Below are positions 810-19,476 of a stretch of DNA of 64,000 nt, piece by piece. The translations under genes and the position numbers were made by a program. This stretch comes from an uncultured Flaviramulus sp. (GTDB lineage Bacteria > Bacteroidota > Bacteroidia > Flavobacteriales > Flavobacteriaceae): contig CANLXL010000001.1 in assembly GCA_947495125.1 (NCBI GenBank), positions 682,001 to 746,000 of the forward strand, written 5' to 3'. Below the pieces are notes generated by a model. It was not told where the DNA came from, did no database searches, and saw nothing but the letters and a program-made list of their open reading frames with translations. The number at the start of each line of letters is the position of its first letter. Position 1 is the first letter of the stretch.

Positions 810-2273
810 TTAGTTTAGTTTGTTCAATTTACCTGACCATACATCAGTTAACGTTGAAAACACAGCTTTTCCATCAACAACCTCTGTTGCTTGTCCACCA
901 ATAATAAAGATATTCCCTTGAGGATCGACAAAAATATTAGAATTACATCTCGGTGTAAACGTATCTGGTAAGGCTTGGAAAGGTTCTACCGGATTCCATG
1001 TAACACCACCATCTTCAGATATTAAAACTTCAGAAGTACAGGTTCCATCGGCTAAGGCACCACCAAACATCCATAACTTATCATCATAAGATACCACGCT
1101 GGTTCTCATTCTGGCAGAGAACGCTCCATCAGACACCAAGGCCCATGTCACACCATCTGTTGAAGACCAAATATCGCTTAACGGCACACCGTCTAGATCC
1201 AATCCTCCAACAATATGCATTTTTCCGTCATGCATATATGATCCTGCATATGTTCTTTTGGTCATTTCCGCCGTGTAATCTTCAGTTAAGGCGAATGTAG
1301 CACCGTCATCTGTAGATATTAATGTTTTAGAAGCAATTCCTGCTGCAGGTGTATAGACCGCATCCGGTTTAAAACCTTCAAGGTTACTAAAAACCGCTTG
1401 ATTACCTCCAATACCATAAATGATGCCATCTAAAGAAAATGAAGGGGTTCTAACCGATGCCACAGATTCCGGACCAAAAAACCCTCCGGTATCTATGGCT
1501 AATGCTCCAGCTGTTTTAGTCCATGCGATACCATCACTGGTTGTATATAAATCTGATGTTAAGCCTTTTTGAAAAAATTGAGGATCTCCAATTCCAAAAG
1601 GATCAAGCAATTCTGCAAATCCAACTACGTAAGCAACGCCATTTTGTACAACAACATTATGATCTGAACCTGTTGGAAAATCTCCTGTTGGGGTTTCTTC
1701 GGTCCAATTAGCGCCACCTGTAGAACTGTATAATTTAGACACTCCAAATTTCCCTTCTTTTCCAACAATCAGGAAATGTTTCCCGTTAAGGAAGAAATAT
1801 TTCTGAGAACCTAAATCCACATCAAATGCATTTACACTGACTTGATTCCACTGTACTTCTTCAGGGTTCACCTGAGACACATTAGCTTTAACCGTATACG
1901 TTCTTTGTGACACACCATCTATGGCTGTTAACGTATAGACAACATCATTTGTGAAATCATTTTGAGTTACGCCACTTATTTGTTCAACGCCGTTTACCGT
2001 TACTGTAGAGCCTTTAATGGCCACAAATTTAGCCGTTAAATTACTCACATCAAATTGATATGGCAAAAGGTCTTCGTTTTCAATAACATAAGTACTTTGA
2101 TCTACACCAAAAGGAAAATCACTAAGCGACTCTTCAACAAATCCGAACTGAATTATGCCGGTTAGGTCTGTTTGAGGGTCATCATCATCTGTGTCACAGC
2201 TTGTCGTAAACAGTAGTCCAAATAATAGTACTAGAGAGGATAGATACTTTAATTTTTGTTTTGATTTCATCAT
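810..2273 (-). CDS. DUF6242-like lipoprotein with BNR/Asp-box beta-propeller
   Basis: An exported lipoprotein of about 487 aa. The signal peptide ends in a lipobox with Cys at about residue 26 (LLFTTSC), followed by an Asp-rich run. An N-terminal Ig-like part is followed by a propeller with repeated Asp-box motifs such as SSTDGVTW, SEDGGVTW and TTSDGIAW and Kelch-like phrases (KLWMFGGALADG, NIFIIGG). This matches the DUF6242 type found next to Bacteroidota SusC/D genes, where it is presumed to bind ligand or matrix at the surface. The frame can be extended to a TTG at 2282, but ATG codons at 2273 and 2270 sit at the natural start of the signal peptide, so I use 2273. It leads a unit with the downstream SusC. 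The shared regulatory box lies about 90 bp upstream. Confidence 0.85.
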   Translation of the reverse strand: MMKSKQKLKYLSSLVLLFGLLFTTSCDTDDDDPQTDLTGIIQFGFVEESLSDFPFGVDQSTYVIENEDLLPYQFDVSNLTAKFVAIKGSTVTVNGVEQISGVTQNDFTNDVVYTLTAIDGVSQRTYTVKANVSQVNPEEVQWNQVSVNAFDVDLGSQKYFFLNGKHFLIVGKEGKFGVSKLYSSTGGANWTEETPTGDFPTGSDHNVVVQNGVAYVVGFAELLDPFGIGDPQFFQKGLTSDLYTTSDGIAWTKTAGALAIDTGGFFGPESVASVRTPSFSLDGIIYGIGGNQAVFSNLEGFKPDAVYTPAAGIASKTLISTDDGATFALTEDYTAEMTKRTYAGSYMHDGKMHIVGGLDLDGVPLSDIWSSTDGVTWALVSDGAFSARMRTSVVSYDDKLWMFGGALADGTCTSEVLISEDGGVTWNPVEPFQALPDTFTPRCNSNIFVDPQGNIFIIGGQATEVVDGKAVFSTLTDVWSGKLNKLN

Positions 2274-2365: not shown

Positions 2366-2414
2366 CAAAGTTATAGGCACGCCTCAATAAAAATATAGGG
2401 ATAATTCCTCATTT
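2366..2414 (-). promoter_or_regulatory. Promoter with conserved box (site A) for the DUF6242-susC unit
   Basis: Read on the minus strand, a 21-bp box (2394-2414) with the core AGGAATTATCCCTATA is followed by exactly 20 nt and then TAACTTTG (2366-2373), a perfect match to the Bacteroidota -7 consensus TANNTTTG. The same box and the same 20-nt spacing occur at 5361-5409 and 12396-12444. The box occupies the place of a -33 element, the usual position for an activator that contacts RNA polymerase. The binding protein is inferred to be the NarL-type regulator encoded at 4635-5306. Confidence 0.7.
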
Positions 2415-2471
2415 CTTTTTTTACGATACAATATCATACTTAGTTTTTTATATTTGTTCATATTCGAATTT

Positions 2472-4625
2472 ATGAAACCGCTAAGGCTATTACTTCTTTT
2501 TTTTATTGGTGTTTGGTTTATACCGATATCTATTTTTGGCCAAAAGCAAAAGGATTCACTGGCTATTATTAACAAAATTAATGCGCTTAATTCTAATTAT
2601 TACTTAAGTGTCAACAAGAGTCCTGCCTCAAGCTTAAACTATGCGAAAGAAGCTTTTTCGTATTATGACAGCATCGCATCTCCTGAAGTAAAATTTAAGA
2701 TCACCGCAAATTTTGGAACCGCACTTTTTATCAATGAACATTACAGTCAGGCCCTATCTGTTTTAAATAAAATTCAAACACTCGAGGTACAAAACAACAA
2801 TAAGGCTTTATACTATACACTGCGCGGTTTGGTCGAGACCGATTTAAATTTAACCTTACAAGCAGAAGATAGTTATAAAAAAGCGCTTGAACTTTATATT
2901 GAACTCAATGACCGAGATAATGAGTTTACCGTTTTAAACAATCTGGGATTACTCTATAATAATATTGGGGATTACAAACGGTCCTTAGAGTCCTATATAA
3001 ACTGCTATGCCATTATAGAAGATCTCGAAGTTCAAGTAGACCGTTATAAGTATTATATGAATGTTGGAACGGTAAGCTATAATTTAAATGATTTCACCAA
3101 AGCTCTGGATTCGTACACCTCTGCTTTGGAAGAAGCCGTTGATAAAAAGGATACGCTTAGAATATTTAAGGCTTACGAAAAAATAGCGCAGAGTCATGTT
3201 GAAGTGAATCGACCCGACGCAGCGATTAACAACTATAACAAATCGCTAGAAGGCTACACAAAACTGGGTTTGAAAAAGGAGGCCGGTAATATTCTATTAA
3301 GTCTTGGTGATATTTATTATTCAAAAAATAAAAAAGAAGCCGCACTCAAACATTATACGGAAGCTCTAGAGATTGCTCTTAAAAACAACTTCGCTCAGGA
3401 AAACTATCAATCGTCTATCCGATTGGCGGCATACTATCTTGAACTATTAAATTACGATAAAGCGGAATCCTTCTACAAGAAGGTCATTGAAAACGCAGAA
3501 ACGATAAGCAATCTGGAACTCTTAAAAAAAGCCTATCATGGCTTATATGAAATAGAAAAACATCATAACAACACGTCGCGTTCTCTAACTTATCTGGAGC
3601 ATTATTTAGAGTATGATGCCATGATTAGAGAAAACCAATTAATTACGCAAAATGAACAGATTGAAATTCAGTTCGACCTAAAACAAAAAGAACTGGAACT
3701 CGAAAAAAATGAGTTACAATTAGAAAATCAGAGACAACAAGTACAGGGCTTAATCATCGTTGCCGTGTTAATTGCTTTGCTACTGATTCTCATTTTGACC
3801 TCATATTTTCAAAAACGTAAAGCTGAAAAACTGCTGTCGGCACAAAACGCCAAGATCAATACTCAAAATCAGGAATTGGTGCTTACCAATAAAGAAATTA
3901 AAGCACGACGAAAGGAACTTAGTAATTTGAATAAAGTTAAAGATCAACTGTTATCGATCATTGCCCATGATGTTAAAAGCCCTATGACCGACCTTTATAA
4001 TTTACTGTATATCCTGAGACATAATTTGAATGCCCTCCATAAAGATGCATTAAAGAAAAATTTAGCCATTATAGAATCAAGCACCAGTAATCTTTTAAAT
4101 CTTCTTAATAATATTTTGAATTGGACCATTAGCCAATCCTCGGGAATTCAAATCAAAACGAGTTCTTTTTCATTACATGAATTAATAGATACCAATTTGA
4201 AACTGGTTGAAAGTTCGATCGTTGCCAAAGATCTTAGTGTGACCTTTACACCTAACGAAACGATCGACCATTTTACATCCGATTTAAATATTGTGGATTT
4301 TGCTTTGAGGAACATCTTGTCCAATGCTGTTAAATTCACTAACAATAAGGGCACAATCGACCTCAAAATTATGGAAGTTGACGACTCCCAAATCGAGATT
4401 CGCATTGCAGATTCCGGTATCGGGTTTAATGAAAACATTCATACCCTTCTTAAAGAAAATACGGAAAGGGTTCCAACCACCTTAGGAACAAATACTGAAA
4501 AAGGTTATGGAATTGGGTTATCTTTGTGTAAAAAGATGTTGGCCAAAATTAATTCGGAGATTGTTTATGAAGAAAATAATCCCACCGGATCTGTTTTTAC
4601 CTTGCGTTTAACTTCTATGAATTAA
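2472..4625 (+). CDS. TPR-containing sensor histidine kinase
   Basis: A membrane-bound hybrid of a periplasmic sensor and a cytoplasmic kinase, about 717 aa. Signal peptide MKPLRLLLLFFIGVWFIPISIFGQ; about eight tetratricopeptide repeats (roughly residues 30-390); a coiled coil rich in Glu and Gln; one membrane segment (about 425-445, LIIVAVLIALLLILILTSYF); then the kinase. The H-box is IAHDVKSP with His499, the N-box is NILSNAVKFTNN, and the G-boxes are ADSGIGF and GYGIGLSLCKK. All catalytic motifs are intact. A TTG 18 bp upstream is in frame, but the ATG at 2472 begins the signal peptide. The stop codon lies 9 bp before the response regulator, so the two form an operon. The sensed signal is unknown; TPR sensors of this sort usually bind a protein or peptide partner. 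Confidence 0.92.
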   Translation: MKPLRLLLLFFIGVWFIPISIFGQKQKDSLAIINKINALNSNYYLSVNKSPASSLNYAKEAFSYYDSIASPEVKFKITANFGTALFINEHYSQALSVLNKIQTLEVQNNNKALYYTLRGLVETDLNLTLQAEDSYKKALELYIELNDRDNEFTVLNNLGLLYNNIGDYKRSLESYINCYAIIEDLEVQVDRYKYYMNVGTVSYNLNDFTKALDSYTSALEEAVDKKDTLRIFKAYEKIAQSHVEVNRPDAAINNYNKSLEGYTKLGLKKEAGNILLSLGDIYYSKNKKEAALKHYTEALEIALKNNFAQENYQSSIRLAAYYLELLNYDKAESFYKKVIENAETISNLELLKKAYHGLYEIEKHHNNTSRSLTYLEHYLEYDAMIRENQLITQNEQIEIQFDLKQKELELEKNELQLENQRQQVQGLIIVAVLIALLLILILTSYFQKRKAEKLLSAQNAKINTQNQELVLTNKEIKARRKELSNLNKVKDQLLSIIAHDVKSPMTDLYNLLYILRHNLNALHKDALKKNLAIIESSTSNLLNLLNNILNWTISQSSGIQIKTSSFSLHELIDTNLKLVESSIVAKDLSVTFTPNETIDHFTSDLNIVDFALRNILSNAVKFTNNKGTIDLKIMEVDDSQIEIRIADSGIGFNENIHTLLKENTERVPTTLGTNTEKGYGIGLSLCKKMLAKINSEIVYEENNPTGSVFTLRLTSMN

Positions 4626-4634
4626 CACCGCGTT

Positions 4635-5306
4635 ATGAGTCAGATTAAAGTACTTATTGCAGACGACCATTATATCGTTCGATTAGGATTAAAAATACTC
4701 ATTGATTCTTTCGAAGACTTTGAAGTTGTTATGGACGCAGAAAACGGACAAAAGGTCTTAGACCATATCGAAACGGCCAACTATTTTATTCTCGATCTTG
4801 AAATGCCCGTTGTTGATGGTGTTGAAGCCTTAAAGATCATCCGCGAAAATCATCCTGAAAAAAAGGTCATCCTGCTCACTAATTGTATGGATATTCCAAC
4901 ATTGATAAAAGCCAAAAAATTAAAACCTAATGGTTTTTTGTTTAAAGATGGGATGCATGAGGAAATTAAGATCTGTTTAAATGAATTAAAAAAAGGAAAT
5001 TATTATACCGGTAGAAATTGTAAAGCATTTTTCGAACGGCATAAAGAAGACATTATAGAAACCGAAAATCTGATTCGAGATTTAGACGCTCTGACCAAAA
5101 CAGAAATACGGGTGCTTTATAAAATTTCGGAAAACCTCTCAACATCAGAAATCGCCGAGGTGCTCTTCAATAGCCCAAAAACCATCGATAATCATCGTAC
5201 TAATATTGCTAAAAAACTAGATATTAGCGGGTATAATAATCTTCAGGCGGTAGCCATAAATCACAAATCGCTCATTGAATCTTTGTACAATGCGTTAGAG
5301 TCATAA
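4635..5306 (+). CDS. NarL/FixJ-family response regulator (LuxR-type HTH)
   Basis: 223 aa. The receiver domain (residues 4-120) has the acidic pair ADDH, the phospho-acceptor Asp54 in ILDLEMP and the conserved Lys in FLFKDG. The C-terminal LuxR-type HTH (about 150-215) contains LTKTEIRVL and SPKTIDNHRTNIAKKL. It is transcribed just behind the TPR kinase and is its obvious partner. Its likely targets are the three promoters sharing the AGGAATTATCCCTATA box: two flank this kinase-regulator pair (2394-2414 and 5361-5381) and the third is at 12424-12444. The partner assignment rests on gene order and the target assignment on motif placement, so both are inference. Confidence 0.93.
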   Translation: MSQIKVLIADDHYIVRLGLKILIDSFEDFEVVMDAENGQKVLDHIETANYFILDLEMPVVDGVEALKIIRENHPEKKVILLTNCMDIPTLIKAKKLKPNGFLFKDGMHEEIKICLNELKKGNYYTGRNCKAFFERHKEDIIETENLIRDLDALTKTEIRVLYKISENLSTSEIAEVLFNSPKTIDNHRTNIAKKLDISGYNNLQAVAINHKSLIESLYNALES

Positions 5307-5360
5307 TGCATATTAAATTGACATGAATTTTGTTTAAGAGTTCATATTAAATTAGGACTG

Positions 5361-5409
5361 AAATAAGGAATTATCCCTATACCTGTATTCGCAAATTGAT
5401 TTAGTTTTG
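5361..5409 (+). promoter_or_regulatory. Promoter with conserved box (site B) for the haloperoxidase fusion gene
   Basis: The box at 5361-5381 shares the 16-nt core AGGAATTATCCCTATA, base for base, with site A. After exactly 20 nt comes TAGTTTTG (5402-5409), a perfect TANNTTTG -7 element. Transcription should start near 5415, leaving a leader of only about 15 nt before the TTG start at 5431. The site directly follows the response regulator gene, which is its likely binding protein. Confidence 0.7.
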
Positions 5410-5430
5410 CGAAAATAGCATCTTAAACCA

Positions 5431-8400
5431 TTGAAACTTATTGCCAAAAATACAGGCTTCCTATGCGTTGCGTTACTATGGAATATATCCGTTTCGCAAA
5501 CCTTTCAGGCACTTGATGAAACCTCGGGAATAGATCATGTATTTCAGGAATTCGGACAAATGGGTGGTGGTTGTGTTTTCTTCGATTATGACAATGATGG
5601 CTGGGAAGACCTTTATATAACCAGCGGCCTTTCCCGGGATAAATTATATCGCAACCTAGGCAATGGAACCTTTAGTGAGATGGTATCAGCAGGGTTTCAA
5701 ATCACTGAAAATTTTTATACAACGGCTGCTGTAAGCGGTGATATAAATAACGACGGCTATAGGGATCTTTTAGTCACCACATGGAATGGTAAAGACAACT
5801 TGGGTGACTTTGAACGAAACCTTCTTTTTATCAATAATGGTAATGGCACATTTTCTGAAACCGGACTTACCTCCGGTTTAACTGAAACAAGTTTTACCAT
5901 GGGTGCCTCAATGATAGACTATAACAAAGATGGCTTTTTAGATATCTATGCTGTTAATTATATTAAGGAACGTCGTTTTACTTATGATGCCGAAGGCGAT
6001 ATTACGGGTTTTGATCATGAATGCTTTGAAAACCTGTTCTACGAAAATAATAAAGACGGTACGTTTACCGAGAAATCAGCAGCACTGGGTATAGATAACT
6101 CAGGGTGTGCTTTGGCGGTTATGCCAACAAATTTCGATCAGGATGACGATCAGGACCTCTATATTGCTAACGACTTTGGTGCATTTATTCTCTCGAACGC
6201 CATGTATCAAAATAATTACCCGGATGCTTCATTCTCTGATGTTTCCAGCACCACTCAAACGGATGTTGGTATCTATGCGATGGGCATTGCCTATGGCGAT
6301 ATTGATAAAGATTCAGATTTTGATTATTACGTCACCAATTTAGGCAGAAACGTCCTTCTTGAAAACAATGGGAATGCTGTGTTTTTAGATATTACGGCCA
6401 ATGCTACTGTTGAAAACACAAATACTTCAGAATTTGGCGGAAATGCATTAACCACAGGTTGGGGCACGGCGTTTCTGGATGTTAATAACGATTCCTGGCT
6501 GGACTTGTTTGTGGCCAACGGCAGGGTTCCTTCGTCATTTTTACCTACCGGAGAGAACGACCCGAATAAACTCTATTTGAATAATGGAGACTCTACATTT
6601 TCAGACATCTCTGCGAGTGCCAGAATTGATGATCCCAGAAGAGGACGGGGCATGGCCTATTGTGATTTTGATAAAGATGGTGATCTGGATATCATGGTTG
6701 TGGTTCAAAACATGAATGGTAATATAGAATCTAAATCCAAATTTTTCGTAAACCAACTAAACCCGAGTACGTCTACCGATAAAAATTGGGTGCAATTTGA
6801 TTTAGAAGGCGTTAGCATCAATAGAGATGCCATGGGTGCGAAAATAATTCTAACCGTTAACGGCGAAACATTGGTTCAGGAAGTACATGGTCAGGGCAGT
6901 CACTGTAGCCAGCACTCCTTGGTTTTACATTTTGGCCTGGCCACTAATGCCGTTATTGATCGTGCTGAGATCATTTGGTCTTCATCCTCAAAACAAATAT
7001 TTTCAGACGTAGAAGCAAACCACAGATACATTCTAAAAGAAGGGGATGCCACATTAAAAATCGATGAAAATACTTTAGTAAGCGGGTGTACGGATCCGAA
7101 TTCCTGTTCCTATAACCCTTTAGCCACAGTAGACGATGGTAGTTGTGAATACCTCACTGTCAATGCTATTTCAGGAGCCGCTCAATCCGGTTTTAATAAC
7201 ATTGAAGTGTATCATTATACCCCTTCAAAAACAAACTCACAATTAACATGGACGGTTGAAGGTGGTGAGATTCTTAACGGACAAAACACGAATAGTATTA
7301 CCGTAAAATGGGGTTTGTATGAGCAGGGAAACATTTCTGTTTTAGAAACTACCGATACTTGCAATCATCCATTTAAAAGTCTGGATGTCACTTTAAACCT
7401 TTCAAATGTTTCAGAAGATATCTCCGTCGCCAGAATTTGGAATGAAGCTCTTTTAGAAGCCATAAGACATGATTATGCACGTCCCACCGTACATGCGAGA
7501 AATCTTTTTCATACAGCGGTGGCCTTATACGATACCTGGGCGATATATAATGAACAGGCCATACCTTATTTAATAGGAAATGAGCTTCATAACTTCCAAA
7601 GTGAACTCAAAGAATTTACGCCTAATGAAAGTCGTGAGCCCTCAACTAAAAAAGCTATGAGTTATGCGGTTTATCGCCTGTTGACTCATCGTTTTAAAAA
7701 TTCGCCGGGTGCAGAAGCGTCTTTAGCACGATTTGATTTCATTATGGAACAATTGGGTTACGACACCAACTATACATCAAATACCTATAGCTCTGGTTAT
7801 GCGGCAGATTTAGGAAACTATATCGGTGAAACACTGATCAATTATGGGCATTCGGATAACTCCCAGGAATCAAGTGATTACGACAACAGTTTTTACGAAC
7901 CTGTTAACCCGCCTATTGTCCTCAACCCCTCCGGGTTTTCTACGGGCATTTTAAATGCGAATCGTTGGCAACCCTTAACTTTTAATACATTTATAGATCA
8001 AAGTGGCAACTTAATCCCGGGGTCTACACCTGAGTTTTTAAGTCCCGAATGGGGTTCGGTGCTCCCTTTTGCCTTACCGGAAGATCAAAAAACAATTCAT
8101 AAAAGAAACGGCGACGATTATGTCCTATATCACGATCCGGAAATGCCGCCTCAGCTAAGTACAGGAGCGCAAACCACCTCGAGTGAGCAGTATAAATGGA
8201 ATTTTTCACTGGTCTCTTTATGGAGCTCTCATTTAGACCCCTCTGATGGCGTACAATGGGATATCTCACCAAAATCCATCGGAAATATTGATATCGAGCT
8301 ATTCCCGAAAGACTTTAAAGATTATCCCGATTTTTATGACACTGTTAATGGCGGCGACATTAGTATCGGACATCAATTAAACCCTGTTACCGGTGAACCA

Positions 8401-9534
8401 TACGAAACACAAATGGTTCCGCGAGCCGATTACGCCAGGGTGTTGGCCGAGTTTTGGGCAGATGGTCCGGATTCGGAAACACCTCCCGGACACTGGTTTA
8501 CGATTCTTAATTATGTGACAAATCATGAGCTTTTTACGCGAAAATTTAACGGCACCGGAAACGAGCTACACCCATTGGAATGGGATGTCAAGGCCTATTT
8601 TATTTTAGGTGGTGCTTTGCATGATTCTGCAGTGGCTGCGTGGGGCATAAAAGGGTGGTACGATTATATCAGGCCCATATCGGCCATTCGGTATATGTGT
8701 GAATTAGGACAAAGTACAGACCCGTCTTTACCCAATTATAATCAAGCCGGTACTCCGTTAATGGACGGTTTTATTGAAATCGTAGAAGCAGGAGATGATT
8801 TAAGCGGTGCCAATAATGAGCATGTCGGAAAAATAAAAGTCTATGCCTGGCGTGGTCATGATTTTATAAGCGACGCCAATACAGATGTTGCAGGTGTTGG
8901 CTGGATTTTAGCTGAACATTGGTGGCCCTACCAAAGACCTTCTTTTGTTACACCGCCTTTTGCGGGCTATGTGTCGGGGCATTCCACATTTTCCAGAGCT
9001 GCAGCTGAAGTGATGACACTCATTACCGGAGATGAATTTTTTCCGGGAGGTATGGGCGAGTTTATTGCTAAAAAGGATGAATTTTTAGTTTTTGAAAAAG
9101 GGCCTTCTGTAGATATTAAATTGCAATGGGCGACCTATCGTGATGCCTCAGACCAAACCAGTCTTTCCAGGATTTGGGGAGGGATACATCCTCCTGCTGA
9201 TGATATTCCGGGTCGATTAATTGGTGAGCAAATTGGTATTGACGCCTATCAGTTTGCACTGCCTTATTTTAATTCAGATCCTAGTGCTTCCGAAACGGAA
9301 GCCATGACCATTTACCCAAACCCTGTAGAAAATAATGAGGTTTATATTAAGAACTCATCAGCCAATGACGTGTTTAACCTCTTTGACATTCATGGCAGAC
9401 TAATACCCTTAACCAACGTTCAATTTAATGACTTAAACCATACCACGGTATTAAAACTTCCGGAAACCATGGTATCCGGGTTATATATTCTTAAAACAGC
9501 GCATGCGTCTAAGATTTTAATTGTTAAAGATTGA
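5431..9534 (+). CDS. Secreted FG-GAP/ASPIC-UnbV and vanadium-haloperoxidase-like fusion with T9SS tail
   Basis: 1367 aa. In order: signal peptide (ends ISVSQ); seven FG-GAP/VCBS-like repeats with Ca-binding DxDxDG loops (about 45-430); an ASPIC/UnbV domain (about 465-545); a Cys-containing module CTDPNSCSYNP...DDGSC common in secreted flavobacterial proteins; an Ig/PKD-like part; a PAP2/vanadium-haloperoxidase domain (about 670-1285); and a type IX secretion tail starting YPNP. All three vanadate-binding signatures are present: Lys1074-x6-Arg1081-Pro, Ser1182-Gly-His1184 (Val instead of Pro before Ser), and Ser-Arg1247-x5-His1253-x3-Asp1257. It may oxidise halides with peroxide or act as a secreted phosphatase. 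The start is TTG; no ATG lies nearby in frame, and the signal peptide begins right there. Confidence 0.88.
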   Translation: MKLIAKNTGFLCVALLWNISVSQTFQALDETSGIDHVFQEFGQMGGGCVFFDYDNDGWEDLYITSGLSRDKLYRNLGNGTFSEMVSAGFQITENFYTTAAVSGDINNDGYRDLLVTTWNGKDNLGDFERNLLFINNGNGTFSETGLTSGLTETSFTMGASMIDYNKDGFLDIYAVNYIKERRFTYDAEGDITGFDHECFENLFYENNKDGTFTEKSAALGIDNSGCALAVMPTNFDQDDDQDLYIANDFGAFILSNAMYQNNYPDASFSDVSSTTQTDVGIYAMGIAYGDIDKDSDFDYYVTNLGRNVLLENNGNAVFLDITANATVENTNTSEFGGNALTTGWGTAFLDVNNDSWLDLFVANGRVPSSFLPTGENDPNKLYLNNGDSTFSDISASARIDDPRRGRGMAYCDFDKDGDLDIMVVVQNMNGNIESKSKFFVNQLNPSTSTDKNWVQFDLEGVSINRDAMGAKIILTVNGETLVQEVHGQGSHCSQHSLVLHFGLATNAVIDRAEIIWSSSSKQIFSDVEANHRYILKEGDATLKIDENTLVSGCTDPNSCSYNPLATVDDGSCEYLTVNAISGAAQSGFNNIEVYHYTPSKTNSQLTWTVEGGEILNGQNTNSITVKWGLYEQGNISVLETTDTCNHPFKSLDVTLNLSNVSEDISVARIWNEALLEAIRHDYARPTVHARNLFHTAVALYDTWAIYNEQAIPYLIGNELHNFQSELKEFTPNESREPSTKKAMSYAVYRLLTHRFKNSPGAEASLARFDFIMEQLGYDTNYTSNTYSSGYAADLGNYIGETLINYGHSDNSQESSDYDNSFYEPVNPPIVLNPSGFSTGILNANRWQPLTFNTFIDQSGNLIPGSTPEFLSPEWGSVLPFALPEDQKTIHKRNGDDYVLYHDPEMPPQLSTGAQTTSSEQYKWNFSLVSLWSSHLDPSDGVQWDISPKSIGNIDIELFPKDFKDYPDFYDTVNGGDISIGHQLNPVTGEPYETQMVPRADYARVLAEFWADGPDSETPPGHWFTILNYVTNHELFTRKFNGTGNELHPLEWDVKAYFILGGALHDSAVAAWGIKGWYDYIRPISAIRYMCELGQSTDPSLPNYNQAGTPLMDGFIEIVEAGDDLSGANNEHVGKIKVYAWRGHDFISDANTDVAGVGWILAEHWWPYQRPSFVTPPFAGYVSGHSTFSRAAAEVMTLITGDEFFPGGMGEFIAKKDEFLVFEKGPSVDIKLQWATYRDASDQTSLSRIWGGIHPPADDIPGRLIGEQIGIDAYQFALPYFNSDPSASETEAMTIYPNPVENNEVYIKNSSANDVFNLFDIHGRLIPLTNVQFNDLNHTTVLKLPETMVSGLYILKTAHASKILIVKD

Positions 9535-9756
9535 TTTTCTAAATTCAGATTATTTCGAATAATAATAGTCAAGCTGAAGACCGAAACAACGTCATGTCTG
9601 ATGTTTTGTAATCGTTTTTCTTTAGAACTGAATTGGATTTTGATTAATAATAACCTCGGCCTCGAGAAACCCCAGAACAAGTTAAACTCGGCTTGATAGC
9701 GACATCGTCGTTAATACCCGGTCTTAAACTAAACGACAATTTAAAGTTACCCTGTT

Positions 9757-9777
9757 TTGCTGAGCTTGTCGAAGCAC
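9757..9777. repeat. Dispersed short repeat containing CTGAGCTTGTCGAAG
   Basis: The sequence TGCTGAGCTTGTCGAAGCA is an imperfect dyad. From memory, its core is a very common interspersed element in flavobacterial intergenic DNA. Only this copy is seen in the window, so the assignment rests on recall and not on copies counted here. Confidence 0.4.
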
Positions 9778-9852
9778 AATGAAACGAAAAATATTAACGC
9801 CGCTAGCGCTAAAATAGACACAAATAATACTACCTCCTTCAGTTTAACGCAT

Positions 9853-9885
9853 AAAAAAGTGCGCCAATCAACTTAGCACACTTTT
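9853..9885 (-). terminator. Intrinsic terminator for the minus-strand thioredoxin-like operon
   Basis: On the minus strand AAAAGTGTGCTAA pairs with the later TTGGCGCACTTTT, with two mismatched positions, and ends in a T-run. It lies 43 bp beyond the stop of the gene ending at 9928 and could also serve the convergent plus-strand gene. Confidence 0.55.
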
Positions 9886-9927
9886 ATAATATAACTAACT
9901 CAAATAAATATTCTAAACGTACGAGGG

Positions 9928-11166
9928 TTAATCCAATAATTCTTTCAACTTCTCAGTAAGCTTATCACCTCTCAAATTTGTCGCCACAATTTTACCTGTA
10001 GTGGTATCGATGAGAAAATTAGCAGGAACTCCGGTAACACCGTACAGTTCTTTCGGCCCTGTTTTTGTTCCCATACCACTATCTATCCATGGAAGATCTT
10101 CCTCTTTCGAAGCTCTTTCCCAAGCTGCTCTTGAATCGTCAATAGTAAATGAAAATATTTCAAAACCTTTTTTATTATACTCAGCATAGGCTTCTTTCAT
10201 ATGTGGAATTTCCGAACGGCAAGGTCCGCACCAAGATGCCCAAAACTCTAACAACACCAGTTTATGCTCTTTTTGTGAACAAACATCTCCAAGAGAAATG
10301 GCCTGTTTATCTAATGTTTCTGCATAAAACGAGTTCATCGGACTTCCGACACCAACTCTGCTTTTTGCAACTCTGGCTTTACCTGCATCAATGGCTCTAA
10401 AAATAACATCTTTAATTCGTGCATCTTTTACATCAATGTTTATCAATGCTCGATGAGCCTCCTCCATCCACGGACCTCCGTAAGCAGCACAGTCAAGCAT
10501 CATTAACAATATTTCTTTATCGGTATTGGTTTTAGCCGTTTGAAGATAATGTGCTAATTCGAAATCAATCATTTCACCGGAAATTCGAACGGCTTCATCA
10601 TTCACCTTTGCTTTTTCAGCTTCAGTTTTACTCCTGTAATCTACATACAGTTTTCCGTAGCGCTCTTGTAATTCTAAAAATTCAGGTGCCGATTTATAGG
10701 CAAAAATAACATCGTTAAAGTTTGTATCGCCACCAGTCATCGTGAAGATATTGGGTTTGTTCCCTAATTTCATGATAAAATCACCGGAAGAAAGAATAAA
10801 ATTCATGCCTTTCATAACCCCCATGGTCGCACCCTGTTTATTTTTAGCACTTATATAAATGTAAACATTTTGAGGGCTATCAATTTTACCAGATATTTTG
10901 AACTTCCCTCTTTTCACTGGTCCTTGAGCATATACGACTTCATTAGAGCTTGCGCCTCCCATCATCATCATGGCTCCACCGGTTGAGGCTTTTTTAGTCT
11001 CCGTCTTTTTTGGATACCCTACAATTTTAATCGTGCCTTCAGTATAATAACTCGATAAATCTCCGGATATCGTAAACGCCTTCTCGTTGTCATCGTAATC
11101 TTTATTTGCCGCAAATGCAGTAGCTACAGAAAACAACAATGGTAATATAATCTTAAATAATTTCAT
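9928..11166 (-). CDS. TlpA-family thiol-disulfide oxidoreductase with DUF4369-like N-terminus
   Basis: 412 aa exported protein. Signal peptide MKLFKIILPLLFSVATAFA; a DUF4369-like beta-rich domain (about 30-140), with an odd Gly/Met-rich insert (GGAMMMMGGASS near residue 65); a helical linker; and a thioredoxin fold (about 285-412) with the active site WCGPC, Cys313 and Cys316. Members of this family act in the periplasm, typically as reductants for cytochrome or other thiol proteins, but in Bacteroidota most are of unknown target. It follows the second TlpA gene by 23 bp on the same strand and precedes a terminator, so the two are co-transcribed. A third relative lies at 20290-21444, at the other end of the same locus. 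Confidence 0.9.
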   Translation of the reverse strand: MKLFKIILPLLFSVATAFAANKDYDDNEKAFTISGDLSSYYTEGTIKIVGYPKKTETKKASTGGAMMMMGGASSNEVVYAQGPVKRGKFKISGKIDSPQNVYIYISAKNKQGATMGVMKGMNFILSSGDFIMKLGNKPNIFTMTGGDTNFNDVIFAYKSAPEFLELQERYGKLYVDYRSKTEAEKAKVNDEAVRISGEMIDFELAHYLQTAKTNTDKEILLMMLDCAAYGGPWMEEAHRALINIDVKDARIKDVIFRAIDAGKARVAKSRVGVGSPMNSFYAETLDKQAISLGDVCSQKEHKLVLLEFWASWCGPCRSEIPHMKEAYAEYNKKGFEIFSFTIDDSRAAWERASKEEDLPWIDSGMGTKTGPKELYGVTGVPANFLIDTTTGKIVATNLRGDKLTEKLKELLD

Positions 11167-11189
11167 CTCTTATCTGTTAATGGTAATAA

Positions 11190-12350
11190 TTAATTAAAGA
11201 TTTCCTTTAATTTTTCTTGTAACGCTTCTCCTCTTAGGTTTAAAGCCATGACTTTGCCCTCTTTATCTAACAGCACCATATAAGGAATCCCTGAGAACAC
11301 GTAATCTTTCATAATTTTCTTAGAATCCTGTGCCAATAAAAGCGTGCCTTCCAACTGATCTTCCTTAACGGCCTTTCTCCAGGCATCCTCTTTTTTATCT
11401 ATAGAAACGCTCACCACTTCAAACCCCTGGTCTTTATATAACTGATATTGTTTTTGCACATTAGGCGACTCTTTTCTACAAGGTCCGCACCAGGAAGCCC
11501 AAAAATCAATAAGTACATACTTTCCTTTAAAAGAACTCAGCGATACTTGGTCCCCATTGAGATCAGGAAAGGTGAAATCCGGAGCTACCTTACCAATTTT
11601 TGTTTTTTCAGCATCTGCTATTTTTTCTAACAGGTCGGCTTTCGCATTTTGTACATAAGCATCATTCGGAAATTTTTTGGCCAAAGCCTCATATTGCTCA
11701 ACCATATAATCTTTATGTCTTTTCCATGACAAACGTTGTAAGGCTTTCACAACCGTAGGATAGTCACCATACATGGCAATAATATTTTTGGTATCTCTTT
11801 CACTCGTATCATGCATCACATCCCAGCCTTTAGCAGCATCCTCTTGCCATGCTTTTGAATCTGACAAAGATGCTCTATATTGTTGCTGTCCTACCGCAAT
11901 CATATATTGGTAGTTTTGGTAACCAGCCCAATGAACCGCATTCAACACATTATTTTTTTCGCCACCTTTAATATGAACATGGGGTGGGTTTTTGATCTTA
12001 ATCTTAGCGGTATCGACTCCTCTGAAGTTGATCTCTAAATCTTCATCATCGACATAAAATTCAACACGTTGTTGCTTATAAACATCTAAGGTGAAATATT
12101 CCGGATTTTCAGTTTCCAACTCAAACGTATAGTTGTTAAGTGAATCTAATTTTATTTCTTTTATCACTTCATATTCATTGTCCTCATTACGTTGTGTGAC
12201 GTTTATTCCAAACTTATCGTTAGCGTCTGCGAATTTAATATGTCCTTTTACGGTAATTTTATGTTTTTGTGATGCTTCTTTTGATGGTGCTGTATTGCAT
12301 GAATAAAAGCAACCAATTAATAATGCTATTACGAATATCTTTTTTGTCAT
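11190..12350 (-). CDS. TlpA-family thioredoxin-like lipoprotein with DUF4369-like domain
   Basis: 386 aa. The signal peptide ends with the lipobox GCFYSC (Cys18), so the protein should be anchored in a membrane facing the periplasm or surface. The N-terminal DUF4369-like region covers about 28-130, and the thioredoxin domain about 255-386 with WCGPC (Cys288, Cys291). The phrase APDFTFPDLNGDQVSLSSFKGKYVLIDFWASWCGPC is split into short blocks typical of TlpA/ResA. It is first in a two-gene unit. Site C of the conserved promoter box lies upstream, which links this unit to the kinase/regulator pair at 2.5-5.3 kb. Confidence 0.9.
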   Translation of the reverse strand: MTKKIFVIALLIGCFYSCNTAPSKEASQKHKITVKGHIKFADANDKFGINVTQRNEDNEYEVIKEIKLDSLNNYTFELETENPEYFTLDVYKQQRVEFYVDDEDLEINFRGVDTAKIKIKNPPHVHIKGGEKNNVLNAVHWAGYQNYQYMIAVGQQQYRASLSDSKAWQEDAAKGWDVMHDTSERDTKNIIAMYGDYPTVVKALQRLSWKRHKDYMVEQYEALAKKFPNDAYVQNAKADLLEKIADAEKTKIGKVAPDFTFPDLNGDQVSLSSFKGKYVLIDFWASWCGPCRKESPNVQKQYQLYKDQGFEVVSVSIDKKEDAWRKAVKEDQLEGTLLLAQDSKKIMKDYVFSGIPYMVLLDKEGKVMALNLRGEALQEKLKEIFN

Positions 12351-12395
12351 TATGGCTATAATTTTACCTGTTAAAACTAAGTGTATTTCTTGTGG

Positions 12396-12444
12396 TAAAA
12401 TTATGATACGAGGTCAATACGGATATAAGGAAGATTCCTCATTT
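12396..12444 (-). promoter_or_regulatory. Promoter with conserved box (site C) for the TlpA operon
   Basis: On the minus strand the box at 12424-12444 (core AGGAATCTTCCTTATA, three changes from sites A and B) is followed by exactly 20 nt and TAATTTTA (12396-12403), one base off the TANNTTTG consensus. The preserved spacing makes chance similarity unlikely. Expected transcript leader is about 40 nt before the start at 12350. Confidence 0.62.
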
Positions 12445-12490: not shown

Positions 12491-13075
12491 TTATTTTACA
12501 AATTTCAATTTACGCTGTATTCTTCTTATAAAAAAGAAAAACATATTGTCCTTTTCAAAGCCTTGACGTATTTTTTTGTAGGCAATACGCATTTGGGCTT
12601 CAACAGTTTTTTGAGAGATTTTTAACTTCGTAGCAATCTCTCTATACTTTAACCCATTTATTTTGTTAAGCTCCAGAATTTCCTTACAGCGTGGGGGCAA
12701 TGTATCAACGATACTTTTAAGCTTGCTCAGACGTGTTTCCAGTAGCTCTTTATCTTCTACGATGGTATTTCTTAATGCCTCTTCCCGTAAATCATCAAAA
12801 AAAGTCTGCTGACTTTTCATTTTTCTGAAATGATCAATATAGGTATTGTAAGCTACGGAATACAAATAACTTTTAGGAGATTTCGTGATGTTAAACTTTT
12901 GACGTTTGGTCCAAATAATGATAAAGGTTTGTTGAATGATATCTTCAGATAAATCCTTATCATGAGTAAAAGTCGTCATATAGCCAACTAAGGGCTTATA
13001 ATAGCGATTAAACAGAGCCTTAAAGGACGCTTTATCATTATTTTGTATGGCTGCTATTAATTGTAAATCATCCAT
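12491..13075 (-). CDS. ECF RNA polymerase sigma-70 factor (Bacteroides expansion type)
   Basis: 194 aa. Sigma region 2 spans about 8-75 (ALFNRYYKPLVGYM, DLSEDIIQQTFIIIWTKR, YLYSVAYNTYIDHFR) and region 4 about 118-172 (LPPRCKEILELNKINGLK, REIATKLKISQKTVEAQM). It should direct transcription of the neighbouring SusC/D genes under control of FecR. It is unusual in being divergent from its FecR partner; in most such loci sigma, FecR, SusC and SusD run one after the other. The C-terminus carries a short basic, aromatic tail (MFFFFIRRIQRKLKFVK). It lies 140 bp upstream of the TlpA genes on the same strand, but site C between them suggests separate control. Confidence 0.94.
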   Translation of the reverse strand: MDDLQLIAAIQNNDKASFKALFNRYYKPLVGYMTTFTHDKDLSEDIIQQTFIIIWTKRQKFNITKSPKSYLYSVAYNTYIDHFRKMKSQQTFFDDLREEALRNTIVEDKELLETRLSKLKSIVDTLPPRCKEILELNKINGLKYREIATKLKISQKTVEAQMRIAYKKIRQGFEKDNMFFFFIRRIQRKLKFVK

Positions 13076-13153
13076 TGAGAGTCTTCAATCCTTTAACAAA
13101 TGTGTAAATATCTTGGTGAATAAAAAAATTATTATAAAAAATAAAATTCTTTT

Positions 13154-13191
13154 AAGGGTTTTTTAGAAGTGCTTCCGTCCCTCTTATATAA
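13154..13191 (+). promoter_or_regulatory. Candidate ECF-sigma promoter upstream of fecR-like gene
   Basis: The stretch AAGGGTTTTTTAG...CCGTCCCTCTTATATAAC resembles promoters often seen before Bacteroidota FecR genes, with a GGGTTTT-type -35 and a CGTC-type -10 about 17 nt apart. It ends some 18 bp before the FecR start. That the adjacent sigma factor recognises it is inference from position and recall. Confidence 0.4.
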
Positions 13192-13209
13192 CACCCAAAA
13201 TAATAGACT

Positions 13210-14346
13210 TTGGAAGATTTAATTTATAAATTTTTATCTGATACGATTAGCAAAGCTGAATTAGAAAAGCTTCAGAAGTGGTTGCAAAATGATGATAACA
13301 AAGCGGCATTTGAAGTCCATGTTAGAGATGCCTATGCTGTTAATATGCTGTATAATGATGTTGATATTGAACACGCATTGAAGAAGGTACTGGATAACAT
13401 TAAAGCCCCATCCAGAGTGGTTCCATTATACAAACGAAGCATTTTTAAATATGCGGCAGCTATTTTAATCTTTATTTCAGCGGGAATTTTCTTTTTAACT
13501 AAAAAGGACACCCAAACCGTTGAACCTATTATCGTTAACAATACGATTAAGGTGGGTACGAATAAGGCCATATTAACTCTGGAAGATGGCACCGATGTTA
13601 CTCTGGAAAAAGAGCAAAACTATATCGCTGAAAACTTAGAGAGTAATGGTGAAGAGATTATATATAAAACATCAAACAATAGCAATCAGGATATCGCTTA
13701 CAACTATTTAACCATTCCCAGAGGTGGTCAATACTACATAAAATTATCTGATGGTACGGAAGTATGGTTAAATTCAGAATCCAAACTAAAGTATCCGGTC
13801 GCTTTTCAGGAAGGAGGAATGAGGCAGGTAGAATTGATCTATGGGGAAGCTTACTTCGATGTATCGCCTAGCACCTTGCACAAAGGTTCTAAATTTAAGG
13901 TGTTATCCAATGCTCAGGAAGTTGAAGTTTTTGGCACCGAGTTCAATATAAAAGCCTATAAAGATGAAACCAGTACCTATACGACCTTAGTTGAAGGTAA
14001 AGTGGCTGTTAGCAATACATTAAGCTCCGAAATTCTGGTTCCCGGTCAACAATCCATAATTGAAGAAAACAGCAATCATATAGAAATTATTAGCGTTGAT
14101 GTTTACGACGAAATTTCATGGAAAGACGGTGTTTTCAGCTTTAAAAACAAACCTCTTAAAGCCATTGCTAAAGTCTTGTCACGCTGGTACGATATGGACG
14201 TTATCTTTTTAGATAAGTCCTTAGAAAATGTAAAATTTAAAGGGGTTTTAGGGAAAGATCAACCTATTGAAGAAATCCTGTCGGCCATTAAGTCGGTATC
14301 TATAAACAACTATGAAATTAATAATAAAACGATCATTATAAAATAA
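13210..14346 (+). CDS. FecR-family anti-sigma factor
   Basis: 378 aa inner-membrane regulator. The cytoplasmic N-terminus (1-78) would hold the sigma factor; one membrane segment (about 79-96, YAAAILIFISAGIFFL); a periplasmic FecR domain (about 165-270, with IPRGGQYYIKLSDGTEVWLN); and a C-terminal DUF4974 domain (about 305-378) that contacts the STN domain of the receptor. It reads from a TTG at 13210, which gives the usual short MEDLIYKFL start; the first in-frame ATG is much later. It precedes the STN-bearing SusC by 131 bp and diverges from its sigma factor. Signal flow should be receptor STN to FecR to sigma. Confidence 0.92.
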   Translation: MEDLIYKFLSDTISKAELEKLQKWLQNDDNKAAFEVHVRDAYAVNMLYNDVDIEHALKKVLDNIKAPSRVVPLYKRSIFKYAAAILIFISAGIFFLTKKDTQTVEPIIVNNTIKVGTNKAILTLEDGTDVTLEKEQNYIAENLESNGEEIIYKTSNNSNQDIAYNYLTIPRGGQYYIKLSDGTEVWLNSESKLKYPVAFQEGGMRQVELIYGEAYFDVSPSTLHKGSKFKVLSNAQEVEVFGTEFNIKAYKDETSTYTTLVEGKVAVSNTLSSEILVPGQQSIIEENSNHIEIISVDVYDEISWKDGVFSFKNKPLKAIAKVLSRWYDMDVIFLDKSLENVKFKGVLGKDQPIEEILSAIKSVSINNYEINNKTIIIK

Positions 14347-14477
14347 CAGAGCCTATGGTATAAAACAACATTATAAAACTAAAAGGGACAAAGTCAAAAC
14401 CGTTCAAAGCATTCGACTTCACCCCTGTTTCATTATCAATTAATTACATGTATAACTAACTAATAACACGCAAATTT

Positions 14478-17400
14478 ATGGAAATTAAATTAAAGGACGT
14501 TCTTTCCTTCCCGATAGCTATTGGGATTAGAAAAAACCTATTACTATTCATTATGAGGGCTTTTATCTTTTTATGCTGTGCAACCGTCTTTAGCTTAGCA
14601 CCAAACAATTTGGTATCTCAAAATTCCAGAATTAAAATAGATACAGATAAAATATTGACGGTTGATGAAGTATTTGATCTTATCAAAGAACAAACCAATT
14701 ATAAATTCATTTATGAAGTAGGCATATTTAAAGACTTTAAGTCTATAGAAGTGAAGAAAGGTGTCATTCGAACCAATAAATTATTACAAAAAAGCTTATC
14801 TCAAGGTGATTTCAACCTGATTGTAACTACCAATAACACTATTCTTATAAGAGAAAAATCAAAAAGAAGACAAAAAAAAGTCTCCGGTGAAGTTTTTAAC
14901 AAAGACGGATTGCCTCTACCTGGTGTAGTTGTTTTGATAAAAGGAACAACCACTGGAACTGTGACAAATTTTGATGGTAACTACACCATTGACGTTCCCA
15001 ATCCGGAGAATATACTGGTCTTTTCTTTTTTGGGGTATGAAACACAAGAGATGCTGGTAGGCAATCAAAAGATAATCAATGTCACATTAAAAGAAGACAT
15101 TGCCGAATTATCAGAAGTCATCGTTACCGGATATCAAAATATTTCACCAAATAAATCCACCGGATCAACCGCAGTGGTTAGCGGTAAAACACTTGAACGA
15201 AAAGGAAACCCAAATCTCCTGCAATCCCTGGAAGGACAAATTCCCGGGTTATTATTATCAAGTGATCCTACTCAGGAAGGTGGTACAAACATTAATATTC
15301 GTGGTATTGCGAATTTAAATGGAAATGCAAGCCCTTTGATTGTTGTTGATGGGTTTCCTTTGGAGGCCGATTTATCATCCATCAACCCCTACGAAGTAGA
15401 AACCGTTACCGTTTTAAAAGATGCCGCTGCGGCTTCCATATACGGTGCTCGCTCTGCTAACGGCGTTATTGTTATTACAACTAAAAGGGGGAAATCAGGA
15501 AAAATGAAGGTGGGTTACCGCAGTTTTTTAACAATTACGGAAAGTCCGGATTTAGCATATCGCCTAAACCGAGCAGATGCCGATACGTATATAAACACAC
15601 AATTACAAACTGCTAATAATTTTGTAGCAAGCGGGTCGTTTTCAGGACACACATATCAATGGTATTTAGAGAACATCCCGAACTTCGCAAACTTCTTTAG
15701 TGCCTCGAGAAACATTGTTGCCGATGCTGTTTTTGGAGCTGGCGACGGGTACATTACTGAGGCTGAAAGAGATTCGCGCATAAATGCCTTAAGAGGTTTT
15801 GATAATTTAGAGCAAATAGAAGATAATTTTTATCAGTCACAATTTCAACAACAACACAATCTTAGCCTTAATGGTGGTAATGATAAAAGTACATTTCGGG
15901 CTAGTATAAATTATACGTCCTCAGAAGGACAAAATGTAGGAAGTGAAACCGATAGGTTCTTGATTGACGTAGCCAACAATATCAAAATCAATGATAAGAT
16001 CAATATAGATCTTGTAGGAAATGCTACTTTCAATAATTCCGAGAGCATTCCCATCGACGAAGGTACTTTTAGATCGGTTAGTCCCTACGAAAGACTGCAA
16101 GATGAAAATGGCAACCCCTTATCTGTTAGAACAGAGAACATAAGTTTTGGCACAAATAACCAGGGCCTCTCCGGAGGAAAAGACCCTTTAATCATTCAAA
16201 ATCAAATTGATGCCGGTTTATTAGACGAAAACTATTATCCGCTCCAAGAGTTAAAGGAAAACCAAACTGAAACTAAAAATGTTTCTTTGAGATTACAAGC
16301 AAGAATTAATGCAAAGCTAACCAACGACCTCAACGGCTCTTTTTCCTTTCAATATGAGTCCGGTAATATTAAAAACGACATTCTTCAAAGGGATGAAGCA
16401 TGGGCCCTTAAAAACTTAATTAACAATGCTACACCTTTATCTTTTGACGGTAACTTAACCGAATTACATATTCCCAGAGGTGCCCGACTTATTGAAACAC
16501 GTAGCAATAGAAATTCCTATACATTACGTGGGCAGTTAGATTTTAACAAAACCTATGGAGATCATGAAATAAGTGCTCTGGCCGGTACTGAAATTAGACA
16601 CATTTTTACTAAACAAACCACTACGGATCGTTTTGGGTTCGATGAAAACACCTTGCAATTTAGGTTCGTTAATAAAGGTTTTATACAAAATGGAAACCTG
16701 GAAGATGTTTGGCATCCAAACGGAATCATTGCCGGTGGCATTCCTTTTAATGATCGTTTTAACGAAACCACAGATCGTTTTTTCTCCTTATTCGGAAACG
16801 CCTCTTATGGTTATAAAAACAAATACATCCTTTCAGGAAGTATTCGTATCGATCAATCTAACCTGTTTGGAACAAACCCGGAATTTAGATATAAACCTTT
16901 CTGGTCTGTTGGTGCTAAATGGCGAGCCTTGGAAGAAGACTTTATCACTATTAATTGGTTAGATCAGCTGGATGTTCGCGCTTCCTATGGTATTAATGGT
17001 AATATTTCTAATCAGTTTGGTCCCTTTGATATCGCACAATTCCTTTTTACCCCATTTCTAAATGATGCACAGTCCTTACGAATCATTACCCCGGGAATCA
17101 ATGACCTAAGGTGGGAAAGAACAGCGACTACCAATATTGGACTCGATCTGGCTTTTCTAAACAGTCGCATTAATCTTGGGCTTGATTATTATATTAGAAA
17201 AACCACAGACCTACTAGCCAATAGTGAGGCCGACACAACACTTGGTTTCTCATCTTTGGTTAGAAACGATGCGAATATCGATAATAACGGGATTGAAGTT
17301 TCCCTAAACACAACGAACATTCGTACCAAAAACTTTAGTTGGTCTACCAATATTACCTTTAGACATAACAACAATGAAGTTAAAGAAGTCTTTACGGAAG

Positions 17401-18098: not shown

Positions 18099-18117
18099 CT
18101 CATAAAGACTTTTTAAG

Positions 18118-19476
18118 ATGAAAAAAATATTCAATATATATATATTCTCCATGTTCATAGCTTTCACCAGTTGTGATGACTATTTGGATGTTGAACCCAT
18201 TGGCCTCGTTGTCCCTGAAAATGTAGAACATTTCGATTTATTATTAAACGGTGAACGAAATATCGTATTTACTTCAGATCAAGATGATTTGGTTATATCT
18301 GCCGATGATTTTGTACTAAGCTCTTTCGGGTTTGGTAATTTAGAGGATCCGAGCAATCAAAATTTACAGTTGTTTTCGTGGAACTCAGACTTATATAAAG
18401 ATTCAGATCCCAAACAAGTTTGGAGTCTGCCCTATGCCAATATTTACACGTTTAATTCGGTTATCAATGGTGTGGAAGATGCATCTTTAGCACCTGCCTA
18501 TGTTGAAGCAGATAAAGGTCGAATTAAGGCCGAAGCACAAACACAACGTGCTTTCGAATATTGGATATTGGTAAACACTTTTGCAAAACAATACGATGCC
18601 GGAACCGCAGCTTCAGATCCGGGTGTCCCTCTAGTGACCGTCGCCGATGTTTCGCAAACCACCCCACAACGATCAACAGTTCAAGACGTCTATGATTTTA
18701 TTTTAAAAGATCTTGAAGACGCTGTGGCAAGTTTGTCTTCAGAATCCGTTAATATAGGGCGTCCTTCAAGAGGAGCGGCTTACGCCATGTTAAGTCGTGT
18801 GAAATTATATATGGGAGCATATGCCGAGGCTATCACTTATGCCGATCTCGCACTCAGTGAAAATAATTTTATAGCAGATTATACGGTTAGTATCGACGAT
18901 TTAGAAGATGAAAATTATATGCGAAAAATGATGGGCGTAGGTTTGGGCTTCAGAGGTGGACCACTTACCTCTGCCCTGGTTGATTTATTTGACGCTACCG
19001 ATGGGCGTTTTACGGAGCTCACCAGAGATAATTGGAACGGCGATGGCACCACCATAATCACCAGTATTTTTACTCAAAGAGTCACGATTTGGCCAACGGT
19101 TCCGGAAGTTCATTTAATCAAAGCCGAATGCCATGCCCGTTTGAACAATGCTTCTGATGCTATTGCTGAGTTAAACACCTTACGTGTTAAAAGAATTCCG
19201 GCCTATACAAACTTAACGGATGCTGATTTTACCTCTGACACTGAACTATTAACTTTTACATTGGAGGAAAAAAGAAGAGAAACCTTTAGAATGAATTTAC
19301 GTTGGTTTGAGCTTAAACGCCTTAATCTGGAAACCGCCACCGCAACAACATTGATGCATACCTTACCGGATGGGGTTACCAGTTTTACCCTAACACCGGG
19401 TGCCAATAACTGGGTGTTTCCTATTCCTCAGCAAGTGCTAAATTTTGTTGACTTAGAACAAAATCCAAGAGATTGA
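18118..19476 (+). CDS. RagB/SusD-family nutrient-binding lipoprotein
   Basis: 452 aa surface lipoprotein. The signal peptide ends with the lipobox FTSC (Cys19), followed by DDYLDVEPIG, the usual SusD start. The N-terminal helical TPR-like part contains AEAQTQRAFEYWILVNTF, and the C-terminal part has VPEVHLIKAECHARL and EEKRRETFRMNLRWFELKRL, classic SusD signatures. It forms the lid over the SusC barrel encoded 19 bp upstream. It is shorter than most glycan-binding SusD proteins (500-600 aa), which fits a small-ligand system. Ends FPIPQQVLNF...NPRD. Confidence 0.94.
   Translation: MKKIFNIYIFSMFIAFTSCDDYLDVEPIGLVVPENVEHFDLLLNGERNIVFTSDQDDLVISADDFVLSSFGFGNLEDPSNQNLQLFSWNSDLYKDSDPKQVWSLPYANIYTFNSVINGVEDASLAPAYVEADKGRIKAEAQTQRAFEYWILVNTFAKQYDAGTAASDPGVPLVTVADVSQTTPQRSTVQDVYDFILKDLEDAVASLSSESVNIGRPSRGAAYAMLSRVKLYMGAYAEAITYADLALSENNFIADYTVSIDDLEDENYMRKMMGVGLGFRGGPLTSALVDLFDATDGRFTELTRDNWNGDGTTIITSIFTQRVTIWPTVPEVHLIKAECHARLNNASDAIAELNTLRVKRIPAYTNLTDADFTSDTELLTFTLEEKRRETFRMNLRWFELKRLNLETATATTLMHTLPDGVTSFTLTPGANNWVFPIPQQVLNFVDLEQNPRD

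Follow-up and report, generated by a model that had tools for sequence, protein, structure and literature searches.

Three promoters in one stretch of flavobacterial DNA carry the same 21-bp box at the same distance from their -7 element, which raises the question whether they belong to one regulon and which protein would bind them. The stretch, called the window below, comprises 64,000 nucleotides from an uncultured Flaviramulus sp. (assembly GCA_947495125.1, contig CANLXL010000001.1, positions 682,001 to 746,000). A preliminary description of it had proposed a single activator, most simply the adjacent response regulator. The shared spacing and conservation of 17 sites, their dyad geometry and the lack of intergenic pattern matches in 394 genomes of the order without a regulator match lead us to conclude that a small regulon is real and that the neighbouring pair of a TPR histidine kinase and a NarL-type regulator is the best candidate to control it. 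With good, if not full, confidence we propose that the boxes serve as operators of one activator in class II position, most likely this regulator together with its kinase.

All three boxes lie where the preliminary description had placed them, each exactly 20 nt ahead of a TANNTTTR element. Searched without mismatches, AGGAATNWTCCYTATA occurs in the organism's own genome (5.36 Mb) at these three places only. In our numbering the first A of AGGAATTATCCCTATA is 1 and a position 0 is counted; the box then extends from -4 to 16, positions 17-36 form the spacer and positions 37-44 the -7 element. Genome scanning, suggested earlier as a check, revealed two additional boxes, both beside -7 elements. 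The fourth site (C1:676339-676383, minus strand), 5.6 kb to the left of the window, is separated by 49 nt from a thioredoxin gene (CGPC) downstream, after which come genes for a small exported product and a protein with NHL repeats. The fifth (C1:470278-470322, minus strand) is situated some 212 kb to the left; the next gene, starting 114 nt downstream of it, encodes an M16 peptidase (HFLEH), and DsbD_N, DsbD and TlpA genes follow. All five sites are intergenic. The regulon first proposed from three promoters thereby gains two members, another thioredoxin unit and the M16-DsbD-TlpA operon. With unit extents deduced from gene order and strand, four of the five box-led units would encode thioredoxin-fold proteins, the exception being the haloperoxidase-like fusion.

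Next, we examined relatives. Scanning of genome contigs for the regulator yielded five loci, among them those of Tamlana sp. I1 (82% identical regulator), Snuella sedimenti (77%), Flavobacterium metagenome-assembled genome NK2020 (76%) and Cellulophaga omnivescoria (69%). At a threshold of 1e-40, three of 148 genomes (own included) gave a match to the regulator: our own, G021 (64%) and G016 (45%, partial). Two loci were dropped. The Thalassomonas locus L045 (33% identity) has no box with a -7 element; the G016 match covers residues 45-218 with two internal stops, and the 20-kb stretch around its frame (L047:9995-10495) contains neither a kinase or target gene nor a box with a -7 element. Five relatives with a regulator ortholog (64-82% identical) were therefore counted: Tamlana, Snuella, NK2020, Cellulophaga and G021. 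In all five, the TPR kinase gene precedes the regulator gene, the two are divergent from a BamI-like/SusC/SusD/thioredoxin unit, and tlpA1 is nearby, beyond the regulator in four of them and downstream of the unit in G021, where the locus spans both ends of a single contig. An ecotin-family protease inhibitor gene (L096:13413-13952) stands beside tlpA1 in G021.

It had been suggested that box and regulator should be conserved together at orthologous loci. At the susC and tlpA1 promoters this holds in six of six regulator-bearing genomes, own included. Scanning with the box alone recovered it at both orthologous promoters of four relatives, all eight copies 20 nt before TANNTTTR. The susC site of G021 deviates from the pattern by four mismatches, and its tlpA1 site scores 19.1 bits with a matrix blind to that site. 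When 21 stretches (431,081 bases, some overlapping) were scanned with the matrix, hits of at least 19 bits were confined to the 17 sites, one G151 site being hit on both strands of its palindrome; the next best, 15.4 bits, was the opposite strand of box 3. Position and spacing of the box have been kept, while identity over the full 21 bp, as first described, is stricter than the sites of relatives allow. Across six genomes, the 17 sites retain a common 20-nt spacing despite diverged spacers and flanks: mean identity among orthologous sites is 80-87% in the box and 80-84% in the -7 element, against 32-47% in the spacer and 26-40% in the flanks. Evidently, only the box, the -7 element and their mutual distance have escaped drift.

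The same is seen in the alignment itself. In the first 15 aligned sites, positions -4, -1, 1-4, 10, 11, 13 and 14 are invariant. The -7 element is likewise constant in TA..TTT; the information content of the spacer is low. TANNTTTR stands at offset 20 in 16 of the 17 sites, the remaining one having TAATTTAA; its last base is G in nine and A in six of the first 15. These elements agree with the housekeeping promoter consensus of Bacteroidota, TAnnTTTG at -7, as given in the available text of PMC7366714.

Could such sites be mere chance likenesses of promoters in an AT-rich genome? The loose box taken by itself would fit this, since with up to two mismatches it occurs at 101 places in the own genome versus 95 for the reversed pattern and is thus not in excess. 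Within the window, 19 box places with no more than three mismatches compare with a shuffle mean of 12.75. It is the combination of box and spacing that rises above chance. Near 30 box places of the own genome (all six with no or one mismatch and the first 24 of 95 with two), TANNTTTR occurs seven times at offsets 5-40, five times at exactly 20. When 11 gap lengths were allowed, the pattern matched 16 times in seven genomes, 13 times at the expected gap and three times at others; the 13 include the three window sites that had served to build the pattern. The reversed control gave two, and shortening the gap by one base gave none in the same seven genomes. With the gap fixed and up to three mismatches, 19 matches were found in six genomes (14 real sites and five others) versus seven for the reversed control, the five others being at chance level and excluded from our counts. 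Spacing and conserved sites in five relatives contradict an origin by chance, which we reject as highly improbable even though the loose box is not in excess.

The box is nearly palindromic. Its dyad symmetry peaks at centre 6.5 (68%, against 19-45% at 16 other centres tried), and from this peak follow the heptamers TRAGGAA and WTCCYTA, two bases apart, that is, a 7-2-7 dyad TRAGGAA-NN-WTCCYTA. Two inverted 7-base elements separated by 2 bp are the layout of NarL-type operators. The NarL heptamer, which we take to be TACYYMT, differs from the half-site TRAGGAA found here. In all 17 sites the dyad centre lies 30.5 bp from the first base of the -7 element; if TANNTTTR occupies its usual place, the centre would be at about -41, as expected of a class II activator, and the dyad overlaps the -33 region. 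The earlier idea of a single NarL-type activator over the -33 region gains support from this layout, which would fit a NarL-type dimer.

The same overlap would suit repression, the dimer blocking RNA polymerase until a signal releases it, and NarL-family regulators are able to repress as well. We nevertheless regard repression as rather unlikely, because a rigid 20-nt distance in 17 sites next to a drifting spacer would better fit contact between activator and polymerase, whereas steric blocking would tolerate shifts in position. Far less probable still is that the box is an upstream element for an alternative, extracytoplasmic function (ECF) sigma factor such as that encoded at 12491-13075. 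An ECF sigma gene does lie directly upstream of box 3, and G021 has one beside its regulator. In four relatives, however, the gene upstream of the tlpA1 box does not encode a sigma factor, which led us to discard the protein of 12491-13075 as recogniser; moreover, the downstream element follows the housekeeping -7 consensus (PMC7366714, available text), and sigma factors have no need of a dyad such as the box forms.

Coordinates of the boxes, promoter elements and genes in the window
Feature	Position	Strand	Remarks
Box 1	2394-2414	-	dyad 2396-2411, centre 2403.5; precedes DUF6242/BamI-like-SusC-SusD-thioredoxin unit
-7 element TAACTTTG, box 1 promoter	2366-2373	-	
Box 2	5361-5381	+	dyad 5364-5379, centre 5371.5; precedes haloperoxidase-like fusion
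-7 element TAGTTTTG, box 2 promoter	5402-5409	+	
Box 3	12424-12444	-	dyad 12426-12441, centre 12433.5; precedes tlpA1-tlpA2
-7 element TAATTTTA, box 3 promoter	12396-12403	-	
TATATTTG, probable -7 element of kinase-regulator operon	2449-2456	+	divergent; 45.5 bp from box 1 dyad centre
TPR histidine kinase, candidate sensor	2472-4625	+	HDVKSP phospho-acceptor motif; TTG start at 2454 also possible
NarL-type response regulator, candidate activator	4635-5306	+	receiver + GerE
DUF6242 + kelch propeller lipoprotein, BamI-like	810-2273	-	first gene of box 1 unit; susC next, cut by left window edge
FG-GAP/UnbV_ASPIC + vanadium haloperoxidase-like fusion	5431-9534	+	type IX secretion system sorting domain
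TlpA1, thioredoxin-fold protein	11190-12350	-	CGPC
TlpA2, thioredoxin-fold protein	9928-11166	-	CGPC

Which protein, then, binds the dyad? The candidate regulator matches Response_reg (65.2 bits) and GerE (42 bits) of Pfam, both above the gathering score. The kinase gene directly upstream encodes TPR, HisKA and HATPase domains, and the pair is kept in five relatives. Within our own domain boundaries, 14 of 19 residues in the recognition-helix stretch are invariant across six orthologs, compared with 52 of 115 in the receiver. Judged by dyad layout, synteny and the conserved recognition helix, the TPR-kinase/NarL-type pair is most likely the regulator sought. Its own operon probably uses TATATTTG as promoter element: this octamer recurs in five of six genomes, at 45.5 or 47.5 bp from the centre of the dyad, G150 lacking it.

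Under the mechanism we propose, the TPR histidine kinase would phosphorylate the adjacent regulator, whose dimer would bind TRAGGAA-NN-WTCCYTA, centred 30.5 bp ahead of the TANNTTTR start, and, as a class II activator, recruit RNA polymerase with the housekeeping sigma factor. Five promoters of the own genome would be governed in this way, namely those of the BamI-like/SusC/SusD/thioredoxin unit, the second thioredoxin unit, the haloperoxidase-like fusion, tlpA1-tlpA2 and the M16/DsbD/TlpA operon. Their common role may be exported thiol reduction coupled to an outer-membrane uptake system.

The M16 operon lies away from the locus and offers a partial test of the link between box and regulator. 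Searching 28 genomes for the M16 peptidase gave 14 matches, seven of them 59-100% identical. Among orthologous copies in regulator-bearing genomes, three of five are preceded by the box (own, Snuella and, in G151, the copy close to the locus, whose -7 element is TAATTTAA); among those in genomes without a regulator match at 1e-40 (G019 and G006), none of two. The seven less similar matches (30-49% identical, not counted as orthologs) include none with box and -7 element. G151 has two M16 peptidase gene copies (L100 and L109), the box being present only at the regulator-near one. This pattern is in favour of a link between box and regulator; the numbers are small, and two copies contradict a strict rule. 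Joint retention of box and regulator, as first envisaged, is thus borne out for the susC and tlpA1 boxes and fails for the M16 box in some regulator-bearing genomes.

For a wider view, 395 genomes of the order (own included) were searched for the regulator at a threshold of 1e-50, and the same number, drawn in the same way, was scanned with the fixed-gap pattern. The regulator was found in none of the 394 other genomes, up to seven candidates being scored in each. The own genome yielded five matches to the pattern and five others one match each, the reversed pattern giving three; all five outside matches fall within long reading frames, and two of these frames are one and the same gene in related genomes. 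A search for the BamI-like unit found it in three of the 395 genomes, namely our own, G021 and G539; two pieces taken from the G539 stretch as a test recur in the Snuella locus.

Several observations weigh against assigning the boxes to the adjacent regulator. The search of the order was limited to seven candidates per genome. Among the 395 genomes, there was no case of the target unit without the regulator; since regulator and BamI-like/SusC unit are never seen apart, co-occurrence cannot separate regulation from joint inheritance. The box is absent before the M16 copy of G149 and before the unlinked G151 copy, both genomes being regulator-bearing. Finally, a first look at the own genome gave 49-59 regulator-like candidates, so other LuxR-type regulators exist there.

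This last count is one reason to consider that the regulon is real and under the control of some other LuxR/NarL-type protein whose gene lies at a distant place, the adjacent pair being a mere neighbour or a target. Half-sites are similar across NarL-family proteins, and box 1 lies about 60 bp from the kinase start. Two findings speak against such a regulator, which we think improbable: the pattern has no non-coding match in the 394 genomes of the order without the adjacent regulator, and a second TPR-kinase/regulator pair (L037:1125-3659), encoded towards the end of the unit, was rejected as binder, its regulator giving no Pfam GerE match and no clear counterpart of the pair being found beside the locus in the stretches of the five relatives. 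The nearest is a frame of 183 amino acids in Snuella (L098:4197-4748, 27% identical), and NK2020 has another kinase-like gene there.

The genes under the boxes are of interest in themselves. In its N-terminal part the DUF6242 protein matches the BamI_Bacteroidota model of NCBIfam (124.4 bits, below the equivalog cut-off of 370), and a kelch propeller follows; on these grounds a BAM-like surface lipoprotein appears to head the SusC/SusD unit, which refines the DUF6242-susC unit of the preliminary description. We found no paper naming DUF6242 in the open-licence literature. The haloperoxidase-like fusion retains K-RP, SGH and SR-H motifs, which we take to be those of vanadium haloperoxidases; between regulator and tlpA1 it has no counterpart in the five relatives, the rest of whose genomes was not searched. 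A cluster of ECF sigma, FecR, SusC-like and SusD-like genes (12491-19476) adjoins the TlpA operon, and G021 has a similar cluster (L046:8100-14779) beside its regulator.

Products of the regulon look exported or envelope-bound: BamI-like propeller lipoprotein, SusC/SusD, CGPC thioredoxins, TlpA, DsbD and M16 peptidase. Such a set fits uptake and breakdown of disulfide-containing peptides, and it fits repair of oxidised envelope thiols as well. Tentatively, and as one possibility among others, we picture an envelope module, complete in itself and scattered among flavobacteria, in which the pair might sense an extracytoplasmic thiol or peptide-uptake signal and one rigid class II dyad at promoters of the -7 type might switch on a dedicated SusC/SusD system, the BamI-like lipoprotein belonging to it, thioredoxins, TlpA, DsbD and M16; new genes, such as that of the secreted haloperoxidase, may be captured by a box arising before them.

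Through the regulon, an outer-membrane uptake system and a BamI-like lipoprotein are tied to periplasmic thiol reduction, suggesting that some SusC/SusD systems run together with disulfide chemistry. The 17 sites in six genomes can be used as a matrix as they stand; with them come a candidate activator, a prediction of how it binds and a small regulon open to testing. To our knowledge, activator operators with defined spacing to the unusual -7 promoter of Bacteroidota have seldom been described. No report of box or regulon was found in the open-licence literature searched; the regulon, the box and the strict spacing on Bacteroidota promoters appear undescribed.

The kind of system is already known: a two-component NarL-type regulator with 7-2-7 operators. 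NarX/NarL of Escherichia coli likewise has a receiver + GerE regulator, and according to the available text of PMC7419079, NarL binds 7-2-7 inverted repeats, its 7-base elements two bases apart, which can adjoin the -35 element or core promoter. Here the targets are others, the promoter is of the Bacteroidota -7 type, and the regulator (E 9.6e-14 against PDB 1a04) scores 77.8 bits with the NarL model of NCBIfam, whose cut-off of 250 is not reached. RcsB is a NarL-family regulator too, and the RcsAB box, TaAGaatatTCcta in the available parts of PMC4325325 and PMC12388358, is similar in letters to TRAGGAA-NN-WTCCYTA. That box, however, is 14 bp long whereas our dyad is 16 bp, the sensor is different, and the RcsB model gives 59.9 bits against a cut-off of 235. 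FimS/FimR of Porphyromonas gingivalis, also a two-component system of Bacteroidota, is described as activator of fimA and mfa1 (PMC5431200, available text). Our kinase matches the FimS equivalog of NCBIfam with 184.5 bits, best in its kinase part and short of the cut-off of 600, and the targets differ. BamI of the Bacteroidota BAM complex, finally, combines an Ig-like domain with a six-bladed propeller, as far as the available text of PMC12578637 describes it. The DUF6242 protein resembles it in its N-terminal part and in the propeller that follows, but stays below the model's cut-off and is encoded together with SusC/SusD under the box.

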